A program made the translations under genes and the position numbers. Shown here in pieces: positions 3,272-23,414 of a DNA stretch of 35,022 nucleotides. The DNA comes from a virus. The DNA lies in the IMG/VR virus record IMGVR_UViG_3300035695_000235, positions 1-35,022 of that record. One strand, written 5' to 3'. Every line of letters begins with the position of its first letter. The stretch's first letter is position 1. The notes beneath the pieces were generated by a model. It searched no databases, was not told the DNA's origin, and worked only from the letters and a program-made list of their open reading frames with translations.

Positions 3272-4537
3272 TCAAACCACCACCCCGAAAACAGCCTTCA
3301 AAACAATGCCTACCTGAGCGCCCTCCGAGCGATTGAGAGTATATCCCAGGCAGTGCGCCTGCTCACCTGGGGCTGCGGCCCGCACACCCCCTCTCCCGTC
3401 CGACACTACGAAGGTACGCGGAGGCAGAACAAACGCCGTCTTCACGTTCACCCGCCCCGAAATCGCTATCGCCTGCTGTGTGGCCCGGGAGTCGTCGTAG
3501 TCTGCACGCCACGTCTCTCCTGGATCGTTGGGTGATCCAAGACATAGGCCGGGATTGGGAGAGACAACCATCGCACAGGGGCAGTTATCGTGTGTACAGC
3601 GTGTGAGCAACCCGGAGCCGTCGCTTTTCGGGCAGACCACGGTCCCTTGTGTGTATGCCTTATCCGTGGGATACACCTCAGCTACGTCGAATGCATCGAA
3701 CGTTTGACCCGAAGCTGTGCTCACCGATCCGCTGGTGGTCTGGAACTGTGTTCCAGACACAACGAAGTTTCCGTTATTGCGTATCTCAGCCTTCTTGGTA
3801 GCCGCAACCATAAAGCCAATACCACCGCTGGAATTGGTCCAGTTGATGTAGCCGGTCGAATTCCCCGCCTGCCTTCCAAGCTGGAAGGCGTTTGAGGTTC
3901 CGCTGAAAGGGGCGTGTGTGAACGAATACCCCTCAGCGGTCCAGTTCCCCGCGCCGTCCGAGCCGATGTTCCCCGACTCGAACGAGACGGAGCCGTCGTT
4001 ATAGATCTCGGCTACCACTGTCCCGGCTGCGTTCCGCACCTGAAGGTAGCCTCCGAAACTATCATGGGCAGGAGCCGACGCTCCCAGTCCGGCGTCTGCG
4101 GTAGTGTCGCTATAGGTGGTAGTGGTGTTGTCGCTCAGCGTGTGAAGCAACAACAGGGGGGTAGTGGTTCCCGCCGCGCTGCGGTAGATATTCCGAGCCG
4201 TGGTACCAGTTGGCCCCGTGGGAATGACCGTGAGGTTCACGGTCTTGTTCGTGCTGGTGGTAGTCGCTGCGGAGGTTGTTCCTGCAATGGTCTCACCGTT
4301 CCCCATGGTGAACGTCACGGCGTACGTATGCGCCCCGACATCCACCGAACCCCCAGAGACCACGGCGAGTGTGGGAGCGGTCGGGGTGGTGTATGTCACG
4401 GCCTGTACCGTCATGCCATTTTTAAGTGTAACCGGCTGGTCGCTCATTGTACCGGTGAGAAGGTCGAAGTAATCGTTCCACCATCCAGAAGAAACCAGAC
4501 CTCCCCCGATGCCATCAGTTCTATGTGTGAGAGCCAT
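3272..4537 (-). CDS. Tail fiber / receptor-binding protein
   Basis: 421 residues. The N-terminus (LTHRTDGIGGG, GWWNDYFDLLTGTMSDQPVTLKNG) resembles the phage-proximal part of tail fibers. Residues about 55-155 form a fibronectin-III-like beta domain (TAPTLAVVSGG to NIYRS). A Gly/Asn/Ser-rich shaft follows. The last 130 residues begin with FDVAEVYPTD and end in ISGRVNVKT and VGIVLKAVFG, a head domain seen at fiber tips. CTHDNCPC supplies Cys residues that might bind metal. It is the most distal tail gene before the lysis cluster, the usual place for a host-recognition gene. Confidence 0.7.
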   Translation of the reverse strand: MALTHRTDGIGGGLVSSGWWNDYFDLLTGTMSDQPVTLKNGMTVQAVTYTTPTAPTLAVVSGGSVDVGAHTYAVTFTMGNGETIAGTTSAATTTSTNKTVNLTVIPTGPTGTTARNIYRSAAGTTTPLLLLHTLSDNTTTTYSDTTADAGLGASAPAHDSFGGYLQVRNAAGTVVAEIYNDGSVSFESGNIGSDGAGNWTAEGYSFTHAPFSGTSNAFQLGRQAGNSTGYINWTNSSGGIGFMVAATKKAEIRNNGNFVVSGTQFQTTSGSVSTASGQTFDAFDVAEVYPTDKAYTQGTVVCPKSDGSGLLTRCTHDNCPCAMVVSPNPGLCLGSPNDPGETWRADYDDSRATQQAIAISGRVNVKTAFVLPPRTFVVSDGRGGVRAAAPGEQAHCLGYTLNRSEGAQVGIVLKAVFGVVV

Positions 4538-9932: not shown

Positions 9933-9961
9933 AAGCCCCTTCTCAGGGCTTCCCGAAAGGG
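9933..9961 (-). promoter_or_regulatory. Programmed -1 frameshift site
   Basis: The heptamer C CCT TTC (9961 to 9955) is in the correct phase of the chaperone gene. Three bases later comes a perfect 6-bp hairpin, AAGCCC/GGGCTT, with a 7-base loop that contains the zero-frame stop. After slipping, translation continues into the 9647-9931 frame. Confidence 0.75.
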
Positions 9962-10362
9962 CCTTGTATGCCCTCCTGCTGAGACTGGATGGTCTTCTGA
10001 GCGAATTCAGAGACACGCTGGAGAAGCGCGGCCATTACATCGGGGTGCATTTCGTCCAGGTGTTGCTGGTTGATCTCCAACATGGACCCGTCCGGGTTCC
10101 TGAAGGGCCACTCTTTGAGGCAGGCCAGGACCATCTCCGTATTTCCGTCCCTATCTGGGTTCTGTACCATCTCGATCTGAGGCTTTCCTGCCTCATCCAG
10201 AGTGACCCGGACGTTGTTGGACATCAGCGCGCGGACCTCCCCGAAGTTCATGATGCGGAGCCGGATCGGGAGGCTCCTTCCCCTCACCTCAATAGTCGAG
10301 GGGATGCCGGGTGCATCTTTGGGGGAGAAGAAGTCATCAATTAAAAATTCCTGGTCGGGCAT
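9943..10362 (-). CDS. Tail assembly chaperone, N-terminal protein (gpG-like)
   Basis: 139 residues. Its place just before the tape measure gene, an extension ORF in the -1 frame, and the slippery heptamer at its end identify it as the short tail assembly chaperone. The protein has a strand-rich N-terminal half (IEVRGRSLPIRLRIMNFGEV) and a helical C-terminal half (DEMHPDVMAALLQRVSEFAQKTI). A sense copy of the dispersed repeat encodes PSTIEVRG. Start: ATG at 10362 with AAAGGAG nine bases upstream. Most ribosomes should stop at 9943; a fraction should shift. Confidence 0.8.
   Translation of the reverse strand: MPDQEFLIDDFFSPKDAPGIPSTIEVRGRSLPIRLRIMNFGEVRALMSNNVRVTLDEAGKPQIEMVQNPDRDGNTEMVLACLKEWPFRNPDGSMLEINQQHLDEMHPDVMAALLQRVSEFAQKTIQSQQEGIQGPFGKP
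10287..10297 (-). repeat. Dispersed repeat copy, GACTATTGAGG
   Basis: Sense inside the tail chaperone gene (PSTIEVRG). Confidence 0.8.
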
Positions 10363-18331: not shown

Positions 18332-18565
18332 ATGGAAGAAGAAGCATACACCACTGTTTATCTAAAATTTGGACCTCCCCTTCCCTGCGCATCGTGCGGA
18401 AAGGGTGCAACGGTTGCGCCCTACTGGCCGGTAGACCAGCACAAGGAGCACGTCATGGGAGCTATAGGCATAGGGGATTGGGTGTTGACCCCTATATGTA
18501 GGGAATGTTCAGAGGGCATGGCTCGTAGGTATGGGGTAACTAGTAGCTTACCGGAACCAGATTAA
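18332..18565 (+). CDS. Small zinc-ribbon-like protein, divergent inside late operon
   Basis: 77 residues on the strand opposite to its neighbours. Two Cys pairs, CASC and CREC, lie 43 residues apart and could bind one zinc. The rest is short and polar with a VYLKFGPPL strand. The start region (TGTGTGGTATGG) lacks a good ribosome site; an upstream TTGACT overlaps the terminase start region. Its end overlaps the facing structural gene by 26 bases. Such a lone gene inside the late block looks like a moron. It fills a real gap between two genes, which supports it, but expression is unproven. Confidence 0.5.
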   Translation: MEEEAYTTVYLKFGPPLPCASCGKGATVAPYWPVDQHKEHVMGAIGIGDWVLTPICRECSEGMARRYGVTSSLPEPD

Positions 18566-19763
18566 CATAGTCTGCCTTCGTCGTTCCATCTGAGGCCAGG
18601 ACGCTCCACTCCTCTCTTATTAATCCAGGCATCTTTGTGATGTACTGGATTTTATATTCCCCTGAACCCAGGTTCACCACCTCGCCCGACCCGAACCCGA
18701 CTATTGAGGAGGAGGAACCATCAGGAAACGTGATAATCACGCTCACACTGCTCAAGTTGGAGAGTAGCGTCCCGGAGGCGTCCTTCACCGTCGCGGTGGA
18801 TGTAATAGTGGAATTGGGCTGTGGCATGGTGCTCCCAAAGGCCAGCGTGATGGCCTGGACGGTAGATAATGACGCCATGAGCGACTGAAATGTAGAGAAT
18901 GCCTCTGTTATGTCCTGGGACAGAGAGAAGGCCAGGGAAAGTGGGGCCAGTACTACCTGGGGCAGGCTAATAATAAATCGCGCCCTGGTCTGCTCTCCCG
19001 CAGGGCCGCGTACCTTAAACACCGAGCGAGACGGTGATAGCCCGGTGGAACGTATGGGGTATCTCGACTGTGCCTCACTAGTCGCGGGGGTGCGGGTGGA
19101 GAACACCACGCGCGCCCGGGTAGTACCAGGGGCCTGTATTTTAAACTGCACTCTGGTCTGCGTGTCGGCCTGTAGGAGCGCGTCTGTTGCGCTGAATGTA
19201 TCGAACGAGGTTGTGTGTGTGGTGGTAGACGGCCCACCCGCCACTCCCATGAAGCCGGATGATAGAGAACTGTCCGTGCAAGTAATCATCCAGTCCGGCT
19301 CAGTTCCCCCTGCTACCCACACCTTCCCCTTGAGGGTACTCCCCACTAACCGAAACCTGAAGGTGTACTTCGTATTCGCCGCGTAGGTAAACGCCGCACT
19401 TCCCAGAGTGGTGAACACCCCCGCAACGTTCTTCCTGATCTCCAGGGTATTCAGTGTGTTACCCAACTCAAGTTGATAGTAGTGTGTGGAGTCTCCTATG
19501 CGGGCCGCAATACCGATAATATCGCTGGTTGCACTCCCCTGCGCGTTGAGCGTGATGTCCTGGTTCGCTACGGAAGTGCTCCCCAGGTAAAGAATGCCGG
19601 TGGTATTGGATGAGGTGTATGTGAGTATGAGTAGGCTGGAGGCGAAGGAAAGAGACTGGTTTCCTCTAACCTGCGTCCAGTTATGGCCGTTCGACGCGGG
19701 ACTCCACGCGTTCGGAGTGCCGCGCCCTCCCGTTAGCGCGGTATCCTGTTCGAGTACGGTCAT
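18540..19763 (-). CDS. Large beta-rich virion protein (lectin-like and Ig-like domains)
   Basis: 407 residues. Residues about 1-190 resemble a concanavalin/LamG-like sandwich (AARIGDSTHYYQLELG, TLEIRKNVAGVFTTLG, KYTFRFRLVGSTLKGKVWVAG, GFMGVAGG). The middle is Arg/Thr-rich with TRTPATSEAQ from a sense repeat copy. The last 100 residues look like an Ig-like domain (TITSTATVKDASGTLLSNLSSVSVIITFPDGSS), and a reverse repeat copy encodes SSSIVGFG. It precedes terL in the operon, an unusual place for a fiber, so a capsid decoration or surface adhesin is possible. Confidence 0.6.
   Translation of the reverse strand: MTVLEQDTALTGGRGTPNAWSPASNGHNWTQVRGNQSLSFASSLLILTYTSSNTTGILYLGSTSVANQDITLNAQGSATSDIIGIAARIGDSTHYYQLELGNTLNTLEIRKNVAGVFTTLGSAAFTYAANTKYTFRFRLVGSTLKGKVWVAGGTEPDWMITCTDSSLSSGFMGVAGGPSTTTHTTSFDTFSATDALLQADTQTRVQFKIQAPGTTRARVVFSTRTPATSEAQSRYPIRSTGLSPSRSVFKVRGPAGEQTRARFIISLPQVVLAPLSLAFSLSQDITEAFSTFQSLMASLSTVQAITLAFGSTMPQPNSTITSTATVKDASGTLLSNLSSVSVIITFPDGSSSSIVGFGSGEVVNLGSGEYKIQYITKMPGLIREEWSVLASDGTTKADYVNLVPVSY
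18699..18709 (+). repeat. Dispersed repeat copy, GACTATTGAGG
   Basis: Antisense inside the large virion protein gene (SSSIVGFG); full flank CCCGAACCC. Confidence 0.85.
19073..19083 (-). repeat. Dispersed repeat copy, GACTAGTGAGG
   Basis: Sense inside the same virion gene (TPATSEAQ), opposite to the copy at 18699. Confidence 0.8.
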
Positions 19764-19767
19764 TCAA

Positions 19768-20400
19768 TCACACCGTTTGGTAGCTGAGGTTTATGACGCA
19801 GACCTGGGGATTTCCTACAATGCTCTGGCCCGATGGTACGAGAGCCGCAACCCACACCTGTTGTTGGCTTCCAGCAGTGATAGGAGACGGGGAGACGGAT
19901 GCAGCAAACCCAGAGGAGGATGAGGTAATGCTAATTTCGGCATCACTAAAGCCGATGGGTGTAGAGGGGGAAGCATTAGAGGTGGAAAACACTGGACTTT
20001 GGGCAGTCTGATCTCCGGCGTTGTAGACGTACCATGTCCCTGTATTAGACGCCACAGGAGTAGAAGCTGATCCATCGTTTAAAATCCCACTCGTTTGATC
20101 CCCAACCGCTAAGGAATAGTACCACTGATTTATTGTTGTCCCGTTTGGGTGGTTGTGTGCGAGCGCGGACAGGAGGATGAGGGTATTCCCCGAGATGCTG
20201 GAATAGGCCAGCGTCTCATTCCCATTCGTCCCGTCGATGATATCGATGGTTCCCTGAGCAGGCATCCCCGTAGCAGAGGCTACCACGATTTGAGAGGCGC
20301 CCGCAGTAACTGCACCGTTGAGGGTAGTCGTGTTCGCTGTGGTGTGGACTACCTCGTTGGTATGTCCAGCATCGGTATACACCTTAAGGAATGCGCTCAT
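19768..20400 (-). CDS. Beta-rich virion protein, first gene of the late operon
   Basis: 210 residues rich in Ser, Thr, Ala and Gly. The N-terminal part holds TLNGAVTAGASQIVVASATGMPAQGTIDI, a repeat-like strand pattern of phage decoration or fiber proteins, followed by WYYSLAVGDQTSG. ATG at 20400 with AGGAG six bases upstream. The gene ends 4 bases before the next structural gene. It is the first gene after the proposed late promoter, with a 190-base leader. No enzyme motif is visible. Confidence 0.6.
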   Translation of the reverse strand: MSAFLKVYTDAGHTNEVVHTTANTTTLNGAVTAGASQIVVASATGMPAQGTIDIIDGTNGNETLAYSSISGNTLILLSALAHNHPNGTTINQWYYSLAVGDQTSGILNDGSASTPVASNTGTWYVYNAGDQTAQSPVFSTSNASPSTPIGFSDAEISITSSSSGFAASVSPSPITAGSQQQVWVAALVPSGQSIVGNPQVCVINLSYQTV

Positions 20401-20626
20401 GAGGAACTCCTGGGGAGAAATACCCGGCTCCAGGGTACCTATTACCCTACAGGGACTCCCGATCAGGGGTTGCCTGCTGAGAACCTGGACTTGGCCCGTA
20501 GAGTACCTACAAGGCCGGGAAGCACGCGTGGGCCGGGGGTGGAGGGGAACACGCCCCGGCCAGGATCAGAGAGGAGGGATACATCTATTATACCACAAAT
20601 GGGCCTGAATTTTTAGGGAATTTAAA
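20401..20626 (-). promoter_or_regulatory. Late operon leader, no gene seen
   Basis: 226 bases upstream of the first late gene. I see no gene in it. It contains the proposed late promoter near 20587 and GC-rich segments (GCCCCGGCC, GGCCGGGGGTGG) that could fold in the leader RNA. Confidence 0.45.
20584..20595 (-). promoter_or_regulatory. Putative late promoter (extended -10)
   Basis: On the minus strand the 12 bases read TGGTATAATAGA, a perfect TATAAT with an extended TGG. No convincing -35 is visible, as expected for extended -10 or activator-dependent promoters. It points into the structural operon. The same 12 bases form the promoter of the small-terminase candidate at 28463-28474. Confidence 0.55.
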
Positions 20627-20905
20627 CTACTTTTTTATCTTCCTCAAAATTGGTCCATCTACCTCGATCAGCTTTTCTGATAAGGCCCAATTCAAGAAGT
20701 CCCGACGCCTCTCCACCGGCCAATCCATACCCACCCCGACGACTGAGGCGGCGAAGTGAAAGAACTCATCGTGTGTCGCCTCCCTAGCGTCCGGCCCGTC
20801 TCCTAAATGGAATGACCGCAGGTCCACCAGCGTGAGCTTTACTGGCTGCTCCTCCGTCTCTACGCTCTGATCGGAACTCTGCCCTCCACTGTTTGAATTC
20901 TCCAT
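20627..20905 (-). CDS. Hypothetical protein
   Basis: 92 residues with an acidic, low-complexity N-terminus (SNSGGQSSDQSVETEEQP) and a compact C-terminal half (THDEFFHFAASVVGVGMDWPVERRRDFLNWALSEKLIEVDG). No family is recognised. ATG at 20905 with AAGGAAGGCGG upstream. The gene overlaps a -1 extension frame of the upstream membrane protein by about 120 bases. A variant repeat copy lies in reverse orientation at AASVVGVG. Confidence 0.55.
   Translation of the reverse strand: MENSNSGGQSSDQSVETEEQPVKLTLVDLRSFHLGDGPDAREATHDEFFHFAASVVGVGMDWPVERRRDFLNWALSEKLIEVDGPILRKIKK
20738..20748 (+). repeat. Dispersed repeat copy, variant GACGACTGAGG
   Basis: Antisense inside the 20627-20905 gene (AASVVGVG); one base off in the GACT word. 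Confidence 0.55.
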
Positions 20906-21197
20906 GGGACTTTCCGCCTTCCTTTATGTAGTTCCTTGTGTAGTATTCCCGCATGTCCTCAGACAAGTCCCTCCTAAAAAATTCAGAGAAACTTTTGCGC
21001 GGGGATTCAGTCCACCACAGGAAGAACAACTCCTTTACCCGGTCCTTGCTTCTCTGCCTCCCCCGGCCTGTGGAGTAGATCCGAGGCGGGGAAAAATTCA
21101 GCGCCGGGGGAATTTTATCTTCACCTCCGGCGGAATTTTCCTCTGAAATTTTAGGCCCTCCAGGTGGATCTATTTGCTTGCCCTGTGAGCCGGTACG
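20784..21197 (-). CDS. Possible -1 frameshift extension of the membrane protein
   Basis: An open frame of 137 codons without ATG or a usable start in its first 55 codons. It fills an otherwise empty 264-base gap and reads like protein: a Pro-rich linker (QIDPPGGPKISEENSAGG), then a charged helical part (KDRVKELFFLWWTESP, FSEFFRRDLSEDMREYYTRN). It is in the -1 frame of the upstream membrane protein gene, which carries the slippery heptamer C CCT TTC eight codons before its stop. A slip would join 222 residues of that protein to these 137. The last 40 residues overlap the next gene and may not be conserved. An unrecognised rare start is the alternative. Confidence 0.45.
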   Translation of the reverse strand, partial: RTGSQGKQIDPPGGPKISEENSAGGEDKIPPALNFSPPRIYSTGRGRQRSKDRVKELFFLWWTESPRKSFSEFFRRDLSEDMREYYTRNYIKEGGKSHGEFKQWRAEFRSERRDGGAASKAHAGGPAVIPFRRRAGR

Positions 21198-21862
21198 AAA
21201 GGGGAGGGCTGTGCGGCTAACATGCGCCGGCTCAACGGACCGATGGTCCGGTTGGGTATACGCGGGGCTTCTATATTCTCTACTGCCTCATCAAGCGCTT
21301 CGTCCATTCCCGCACTAAGCGCCTTGACTCTGCGCTGTGTGGGGAGACGGTCAGCCGCATTCCACGCATCGGAGATAGTTCTACGGCTAAAGTGGTTCAT
21401 TCTCTCTTCCTCAAGTACCTCTACAGCCGGGTTCTGGAGGGGATGCATCACAATCCCAAATACCGGAGTAGAAATCTCCAGGACGCATCCTATCACCACC
21501 AGGAACCCAACCCCGCGACTATTGAGGAAGGAAAGGCGATAGAGAAGGCCGGAGATACCCAGTGCCACGAATCCAGCATTCAACACCACCAGGGATATAC
21601 CGCGAATCAGTCGCTCCGGGTCGGGAAGGCGAAGAATTGTCTTGAGGGCTTTCTCTGAGTGGATGAAGAGGCCGTACGCCCCGAGTCCTACCAGTAGACC
21701 GGAGGCTACCGCGACCGCCGCACCCACCCCAGAACCGTATCCAAAGACGGGAGCAAACCACTGGTCCACGATAAAACCAATATTCACCCCACTCCCGAGT
21801 AAAACGGCGAAGACAATACAATGTCCGCAGAACACGAACAGATTGAATTTCAGGGATTTCAT
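21170..21862 (-). CDS. Four-helix membrane protein, unknown function
   Basis: 230 residues. Four hydrophobic segments are visible: about 7-28, 40-67, 87-107 and 114-142, followed by a soluble tail of 85 residues. The N-terminus (KFNLFVFCGHCIVFAVLL) could be a signal anchor. The tail is helical and basic/acidic (ERMNHFSRRTISDAWNAADRLPTQRRVKAL). No family is recognised. ATG at 21862 has GGAG eight bases upstream. The gene may be extended by a -1 frameshift near its end. An antisense repeat copy encodes LNSRGVGF. Superinfection exclusion or a lysogen surface function is possible but not shown. Confidence 0.65.
   Translation of the reverse strand: MKSLKFNLFVFCGHCIVFAVLLGSGVNIGFIVDQWFAPVFGYGSGVGAAVAVASGLLVGLGAYGLFIHSEKALKTILRLPDPERLIRGISLVVLNAGFVALGISGLLYRLSFLNSRGVGFLVVIGCVLEISTPVFGIVMHPLQNPAVEVLEEERMNHFSRRTISDAWNAADRLPTQRRVKALSAGMDEALDEAVENIEAPRIPNRTIGPLSRRMLAAQPSPFVPAHRASK
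21197..21203 (-). promoter_or_regulatory. Putative -1 slippery heptamer
   Basis: C CCT TTC in the correct phase of the membrane protein gene, identical to the heptamer in the tail chaperone gene. No strong hairpin is visible directly downstream, so the case is weaker than the chaperone site. Confidence 0.4.
21517..21527 (+). repeat. Dispersed repeat copy, GACTATTGAGG
   Basis: Antisense inside the membrane protein gene (LNSRGVGF); flank CCCAACCCCGC. Confidence 0.85.
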
Positions 21863-21906
21863 TCTTTTCTCCTACTACCTTGATCTGTAGGAGTCGCAGG
21901 CGTATA

Positions 21907-22074
21907 CTACATACGGGCGGCTCCTGGTACGAACAGGTCTCGCTCTGGCCGGAGGGTGTTCGCGCATCCCCGGCCCTTCGCATAGTATACCTCCCTTAAC
22001 CAGGGGAGACAACTCCACAGACGAAAGTACTCCTCCGAATAATTCAGCCGCACCCGAATTAAAAATTCAGGCAT
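21907..22074 (-). CDS. Small hypothetical protein
   Basis: 55 residues, below usual ORF cutoffs. It reads like a real protein, with aromatic and charged residues (PEFLIRVRLNYSEEYFRLWS, WLREVYYAKGRG). A dispersed repeat upstream supplies GGAGGGG, 13 bases from the ATG, and that sequence sits in a possible 7-bp hairpin. It lies 44 bases before the membrane protein gene on the same strand, so the two may be co-transcribed. No family is recognised. Confidence 0.5.
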   Translation of the reverse strand: MPEFLIRVRLNYSEEYFRLWSCLPWLREVYYAKGRGCANTLRPERDLFVPGAARM

Positions 22075-23323
22075 ACCAGGTATATTACCCCTCCTCACTA
22101 GTCTGGTTTGGAGGGGCAATTAATTCAGGAAAAACTACAGAAAATTCAGGAAAATTCGGATAAAACCCCCGGAAAACTCACACCCTCCAAGCGTAAAATT
22201 GGGGAATTTTGTGAGACAACTACCCCACGCCCAATCTCAACAATTCGAGCGCCGGCGCAGCGTCCGAGCAACAAGCATGCAGCGTCCAGCAGAGCACGCT
22301 CACGCTCATCAGCACACGCACACGCACCAGCCCGGGCGATGCTCCACGCACACACACACACCAGCTACGGTGCGGGACCACCTGCGCACCACAGACGAGC
22401 GATGAACGCCGGACACGCGAGAACCAGGGACAGGCCGATGCTGCTGTTTGTGGGAGGGTACTATAGGGAATATAACAATCTGCTATATTTTAGGGTATTC
22501 GACCAGCACTCGACGCTACCCATGCATACACATAAGCTCATCCATACGTATATGTGCGTTATAGGAACAGCAGATGTGTATCAATGTGTGTCTCTATACC
22601 AATCTATGTGCAAGCGTGTGCCTGCACAGGGAGTCAACCCCGTATTAGAACAAATATCCACACGCAATAACACATAATGGTACAAGATATTGAGGATTCT
22701 CCACCAAACCAGTACCACTGTACTACCATAAATTAGTACTTTTTACTCTCTTCTCAGCGGGTCTGGTCTCATGTATCATCCTAGTGTGATCGAAACGCGA
22801 ACAAACGAAATGCGAGAGAGCACAAAGCGAACCTGAACAACCAAATATGGTAGCGTTCAACGAGTAACAAGTCCGGTCTCTCAGGAGATGCACGCCGCGC
22901 TGTGATGTACAAAAAGAAGACGGCCCTAAAGCGTGTGTATTGGCCCTCAGCGGATAGTAAGTCTGGGGGTAGGGAATGGGAGTGACCCGGGTACTCCATA
23001 CGCCTGTTGTGTGCAACGCGCACAACGAAATGCCTTGCATGTGAGCTATGATCGCATGCAGCCTGGATATGCTTCTTATCTATCCCGCGTTGAATGGTGC
23101 GTCATTGATGCCCGGCCTATGGGCCAGAGCAGAAAACACGGTGGTCATGCTGTACCGACTAGAACAGCACGAATAACAGTTGCCTCTCTGAGCCAACTAG
23201 ATCAGAGTAAGCGTTTGTGGAAGCGTGAATATCCACCGTAGGCCAGTGTGCGCCGACTAGAGCACAGTTTCCCCTACCCCTGGCTTCTATCCCCGGCCCC
23301 TTCCGCACTCCCCTAGCGGCCTG
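22075..23323. other. Long region without convincing genes
   Basis: About 1.25 kb between divergent transcription units. The open frames here have odd composition (poly His/Ala/Thr) and lack ribosome sites. The stretch holds a repeat copy at 22093, a CA-rich tract (22310-22365), a 9-bp hairpin at 23006-23026 (GTTGTGTGC/GCGCACAAC with one G-U pair), a GCATG/CATGC inverted repeat near 23037-23059, and three CRACTAGA words (23156, 23194, 23253). It may hold a packaging site, non-coding RNAs or remnants of lost genes. Confidence 0.5.
22093..22103 (-). repeat. Dispersed repeat copy, GACTAGTGAGG
   Basis: Upstream of the 55-residue gene, sense. GGAGGGG pairs with CCCCTCC (22088-22094 with 22110-22116) in a possible 7-bp hairpin. 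Confidence 0.85.
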
Positions 23324-23353
23324 ATGACTCGACTGAGCAGGAACGAGTATAAA
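23324..23353 (+). promoter_or_regulatory. Putative early rightward promoter
   Basis: ATGACT (four of six -35 matches) and TATAAA (23348-23353) with an 18-base spacer. It lies directly ahead of the first early gene and points rightward. A palindrome covers the -10. Confidence 0.5.
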
Positions 23354-23363
23354 TTTCCTGCTC
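23335..23363. promoter_or_regulatory. Palindromic operator over the early -10
   Basis: Perfect 9-bp inverted repeat GAGCAGGAA / TTCCTGCTC with an 11-base centre that contains the TATAAA. Its position suits a repressor that blocks the early promoter. As RNA it could also form a hairpin. Confidence 0.55.
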
Positions 23364-23370
23364 ATGTTCA

Positions 23371-23414
23371 CGTAGGGTAGCCTCACGCAGGCTGTTCTAC
23401 GCGAGCATTTGCTC
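23371..23414 (+). ncRNA. Structured leader of the early operon
   Basis: Two consecutive stem-loops. The first has CGTAG/CTACG outside, a symmetric 3x3 internal loop, AGCCT/AGGCT inside and the loop CACGC. The second is GAGCA/TGCTC with a 2-base loop. They stand right before a dispersed repeat that supplies the first ribosome site. No U-run follows, so this is not a terminator. Antitermination (put-like) or translational control are possible roles. Confidence 0.5.

Follow-up and report, generated by a model that had tools for sequence, protein, structure and literature searches.

Siphoviruses use a −1 frameshift of the lambda type in their G/GT tail chaperone. Outside the tail chaperone, phage frameshifts have been described in the major head or tail proteins of Lactobacillus phage A2 and of Listeria phages A118, A500 and PSA, and in gene 10 of T7 and T3 (PMC5009743). 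A published list for E. coli places the heptamer C_CC.U_UU.C with those that shift at a high level and reports that it is not under-represented in genes (PMC4066793). AUU start codons with a strong Shine-Dalgarno sequence (SD) are documented for infC of E. coli (PMC5472188) and, with an extended SD, for cvfC1 of S. aureus (PMC13009471).

The sequence-only reading of the phage DNA analyzed here had proposed a second programmed −1 frameshift, in a membrane protein gene. We found that this reading is possible but unproven, and that a slightly better rival exists, in which the −1 frame would be entered at a start codon of its own.

Genome setting of the membrane protein gene

The window is the whole stretch of DNA that was analyzed, a single metagenomic virus record of 35,022 bases (IMGVR_UViG_3300035695_000235). 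Judged from its sequence, it is a temperate siphovirus, with PHROG family matches to integrase, portal, terL, major capsid and DnaB-like helicase. Relatives in the phage family were located via terL, portal and capsid, and the structural gene order is common to the window and these relatives. The membrane protein gene lies upstream of terL, together with the following features:

21170..21862, minus strand: membrane protein gene, 230 aa, four hydrophobic segments by hydropathy; ATG start, SD AGGAG, TAG stop at 21172-21170; based on the open reading frame (ORF) and codon usage
21197..21203, minus strand: heptamer C_CCT_TTC in slip phase (TC|C CCT TTC), with 8 codons between the TTC and the TAG stop
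20784..21197, minus strand: −1 frame, 137 codons plus stop, entered from the membrane protein gene on a −1 slip; the open stretch begins at 21287; weak coding signal
20627..20905, minus strand: 92-aa ORF with ATG start, in the frame of the membrane protein gene; favourable codon usage; overlaps the last 40 codons of the −1 frame

Elsewhere in the window, about 1.4 kb between the divergent arms (21900-23400) carries no coding signal in any frame and shows promoter-like matches on both strands. Searches for tRNA genes and Rfam families found no tRNA, and no Rfam match carried weight. Two long genes of one relative (L002:140-3121 and L002:4328-6913) each have matches in parts of a 407-aa protein of the window (18540-19763), and this pair suggests that tail-fibre-like genes were duplicated or shuffled.

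A CCCTTT heptamer at the tail chaperone of the phage family

The tail assembly chaperone of the window is encoded at 10362-9647, before a 929-aa tape measure gene, and provides the comparison site:

9955..9961, minus strand: tail assembly chaperone heptamer CCCTTTC in slip phase, within gene 9943-10362

The T part has homologs in nine distinct relatives (loci L081, L094/L110, L104, L106, L116, L119, L123, L125 and L129). All nine carry CCCTTT in slip phase before the T part, as CCCTTTC in seven and as CCCTTTA in two, at a distance from the stop similar to that of the membrane gene copy. At the window's own chaperone site, an SD-like GGAGGG precedes the heptamer and a strong stem (z −2.48) follows it immediately, while the chaperone sites of the relatives show no consistent downstream stem and lack strong folds. 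Comparison across these genomes indicates that the CCCTTT heptamer is very probably a genuine slippery site at the tail chaperone of this phage family. Since the heptamer is slippery in the phage family and a high-level shifter in E. coli, a shift at the membrane protein gene is also possible.

The heptamer within the membrane protein gene

Much of what had been described at this locus was confirmed. CCCTTTC stands in slip phase at 21203-21197 on the minus strand, eight codons ahead of the membrane gene's stop, and is the same heptamer as that in slip phase at 9961-9955 in the tail chaperone. The −1 frame is open for 137 codons, from 21197 to 20787, with its stop at 20786-20784, and the arithmetic behind a shifted product of about 359 residues is right (222 + 137 = 359). 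The site thus has the X_XXY_YYZ form of a frameshift site, in slip phase before a stop, and the −1 frame stays open for 127 codons past the zero-frame stop. The membrane protein gene is not itself a tail chaperone, as it does not lie just before the tape measure gene and has no chaperone match.

According to the frameshift explanation, a few percent of ribosomes would slip at C_CCU_UUC and the gene would yield a 230-aa and a 359-aa product at a fixed ratio; in the longer one, the C-terminal tail would be extended by a 137-residue domain, basic and probably helical. The position of the heptamer and the open frame beyond it, its conservation at a similar stop distance in the chaperones of nine relatives, and its efficiency in E. 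coli all favour such a shift, which we nonetheless regard as possible rather than probable. Unlike the phage's own chaperone site, the membrane gene site has no SD-like stimulator upstream. Folding downstream of the heptamer was no better than in dinucleotide shuffles (z −0.01 and 0.98, vs −2.48 at the chaperone), though strong folds are also missing from the relatives' chaperone sites. A hairpin does start 5 nt downstream of the heptamer, between it and the ATT at 21149. Either reading could accommodate this hairpin: it could weakly stimulate frameshifting, or it could cover the SD until translation of the membrane gene opens it.

We then asked how often such a site would arise by chance. Slip-phase heptamers of any kind number 35 in the 8,164 codons of the window's genes, in line with the 37.9 given by synonymous shuffles. 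Slip-phase CCCTTTC occurs four times, against 0.72 expected from the same kind of shuffle (P 0.013), and one of these four is the chaperone; even without the chaperone, the count is above the shuffle mean. Nine of the ten CCCTTTC copies in the window are on the minus strand. Two further slip-phase copies, in terL (17971) and at 3911, are without evident use, which speaks against the frameshift explanation. Within the 39 codons of the membrane gene that have an open −1 frame, CCCTTTC would arise by chance with a probability of 0.3% if codons are random, a figure that favours frameshifting, but of 5.5% given the encoded protein tail. Over all such junctions in the window, that is, 12 genes whose −1 frame runs at least 60 codons past the stop, the chance is about 2%, by simple arithmetic from the random-codon rate and 232 codons of open overlap. 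Among genes open for at least 60 codons, a CCCTTT heptamer was found only in the tail chaperones and the membrane gene. The membrane gene heptamer is notable, yet not compelling.

The open frame itself is commonplace. In the window and its relatives, the −1 frame stays open for at least 100 codons past the stop in 52 of 261 genes, counted over loci some of which overlap, as is expected wherever the next gene uses that frame.

Coding signal in the −1 frame

The frame had been described as running through a gap that holds no other gene. The 92-codon ATG ORF at 20905-20627 contradicts this: it is favoured by the codon model and covers the last 40 codons of the −1 frame, an overlap of 119 nt, so that the true gap is about 88 codons.

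The view that the frame looks like protein held only in part. We used a composition classifier for genes versus spurious frames of the phage family (cross-validated AUC 0.91), in which the stretch 21149-20907 scored 0.78, above 94% of spurious fragments but above only 31% of true ones. Counting from just behind the heptamer lowered the score to 0.53; the segment upstream of ATT 21149 scored 0.30, and the segment shared with the 92-aa gene 0.19. Between heptamer and ATT the sequence is not protein-like, a further point against frameshifting. A third-order coding model saw 21180-20940 as mostly non-coding, and near 20900-20870 the coding signal leaves the −1 frame for that of the 92-aa ORF. Coding sense, if any, weakly spans about 21149 to about 20870.

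Homologs were sought in viral contigs, phages, plasmids, PHROGs, Pfam, NCBIfam and PDB, with part of the possible protein-collection combinations covered and with scans from which near-identical records may be left out; none was convincing for the membrane protein, the −1 frame or the 92-aa protein. The regions before terL in the relatives hold other genes where they are readable, and the remainder is cut off; they neither support nor refute any reading. A scan of genomes for prophages with the terL profile returned only terL matches of 24-34%. A recognisable small terminase gene is absent before terL (18354-20905), where the −1 frame and the 92-aa gene are putative candidates only. AlphaFold2 gave low-confidence models (mean pLDDT 54 for the −1 frame and 58 for the 92-aa protein). 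The −1 frame product was modeled with four helices, and this weak model suggests at most a small helical cytoplasmic protein.

The third-order model, the lack of homologs and family matches in the collections searched, and the low-confidence fold would all suit a −1 frame that is open by chance and has no useful translation, beside a heptamer and SD-like sequences that are coincidental. We consider this unlikely, as 88 codons are open outside other genes, their composition exceeds that of most spurious fragments, and an untranslated gap of 264 nt would be unusual in a packed late operon.

A natural or assembly indel or substitution may instead have removed the start of the middle gene, or divided what was one longer gene, leaving the middle frame and the 92-aa ORF as its parts. 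The DNA is known from one metagenomic virus record, the coding signal moves into the frame of the 92-aa ORF within the overlap, and this overlap is unusually long. However, the training genes of the window are intact and the 92-aa ORF has its own ATG, and we judge a broken or mis-assembled gene to be quite improbable.

Candidate start codons in the −1 frame

The claim that the frame has no usable start proved too strong. Two ATT codons stand in frame behind strong SDs:

21156..21161, minus strand: SD-like GGAGGG before ATT 21149, −9.8 kcal/mol
21147..21149, minus strand: candidate start ATT 21149; the product would begin (M)SEENSAGGEDK
21121..21128, minus strand: SD-like GGAGGTGA before ATT 21113, −13.8 kcal/mol
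21111..21113, minus strand: second candidate start ATT 21113; the product would begin (M)PPALNFSPP

ATT 21149 lies 20 nt past the membrane gene's stop and 7 nt behind GGAGG, and both ATT codons have the normal spacing from a strong SD that an AUU start would show. The GGAGGTGA before ATT 21113 beats the SDs of all but two among the 27 genes examined. In composition-preserving shuffles of the stretch, which allow for the purine-rich sequence that favours SD-like motifs, a near-cognate start with an equally strong SD appeared in 0.3%, and two near-cognate starts at −9.8 kcal/mol or better in 0.8%, the near-cognate starts having been picked after inspection. These codons, SDs and spacings are directly visible, so frameshifting is not the sole route into the −1 frame, and the presence of a rival start counts against it.

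Other in-frame starts (TTG 21029, TTG 20966 and ATG 20954) have poor SD spacing. TTG 21029 is unlikely, since AAGGAG abuts the codon and the start would fall within the first predicted helix. ATG 20954 would leave only 56 codons, with AGGAGG 15 nt off.

Separate initiation as the favoured reading

Taken together, we tentatively favour the reading that the −1 frame is an ordinary gene started separately at ATT, with a probability of roughly 0.36. A small phage gene of about 110-120 codons, directly after the membrane protein gene, would fill the −1 frame. Its initiation at the rare ATT (21149 or 21113) would be directed by the strong SD, and ribosomes ending the membrane gene 20 nt upstream of ATT 21149 would probably assist. 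The in-phase CCCTTTC of the membrane gene would then be a coincidence or a minor leak. Since the following gene would be in the −1 frame and no stop intervenes, the frame would seem to run on out of the membrane gene.

The protein-likeness, which peaks when counted from ATT 21149, supports this start; the reading also fits the phage family, where the following gene often lies in the −1 frame. We lean slightly toward separate initiation on three grounds: the composition boundary, gene spacing of the ordinary kind and the missing upstream stimulator. This reading is weakened in turn because AUU start codons are very rare, because the coding evidence is weak, and because the shared heptamer is left as a coincidence. 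In our judgement, the priors of frameshifting and of separate initiation are about equally low, and the sequence marks of the two are comparably striking. We place separate initiation slightly above frameshifting, followed by the absence of any gene and then by a broken gene or an assembly error. That the phage would use one slippery heptamer at two places, the tail chaperone and a four-helix membrane protein whose minority form gains a 137-residue C-terminal domain, is somewhat doubtful. We infer translation of the −1 frame and its ATT start.

Comparison with known systems

What this analysis firmly adds is the conservation of the chaperone heptamer CCCTTT[C/A] across this siphovirus family. 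A real frameshift in the membrane gene would carry siphovirus recoding beyond virion and tail-assembly proteins, into a membrane protein. If the −1 frame is an AUU-started gene, it would illustrate how automated searches can be misled: start lists limited to ATG, GTG and TTG produce fusions that look like frameshifts.

The membrane gene site shares with the G/GT chaperone, including the phage's own at 9961-9955, the heptamer, the slip phase, a short distance to the stop and a long open −1 frame. It differs from the G/GT chaperone in that the gene is not beside the tape measure gene, encodes a membrane protein, lacks an upstream SD-like stimulator and had no homologs in the collections searched. 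With A2, A118, A500, PSA and gene 10 of T7 and T3, the shared feature would be a minority C-terminal extension made by slippage close to the stop; in those phages the proteins concerned are abundant in the virion and their products have been demonstrated, whereas the membrane protein is known from sequence alone. With infC and cvfC1, the shared feature is an ATT behind a strong SD at normal spacing; those starts are conserved and experimentally supported, whereas the candidate ATT start is read from the DNA of a single phage.
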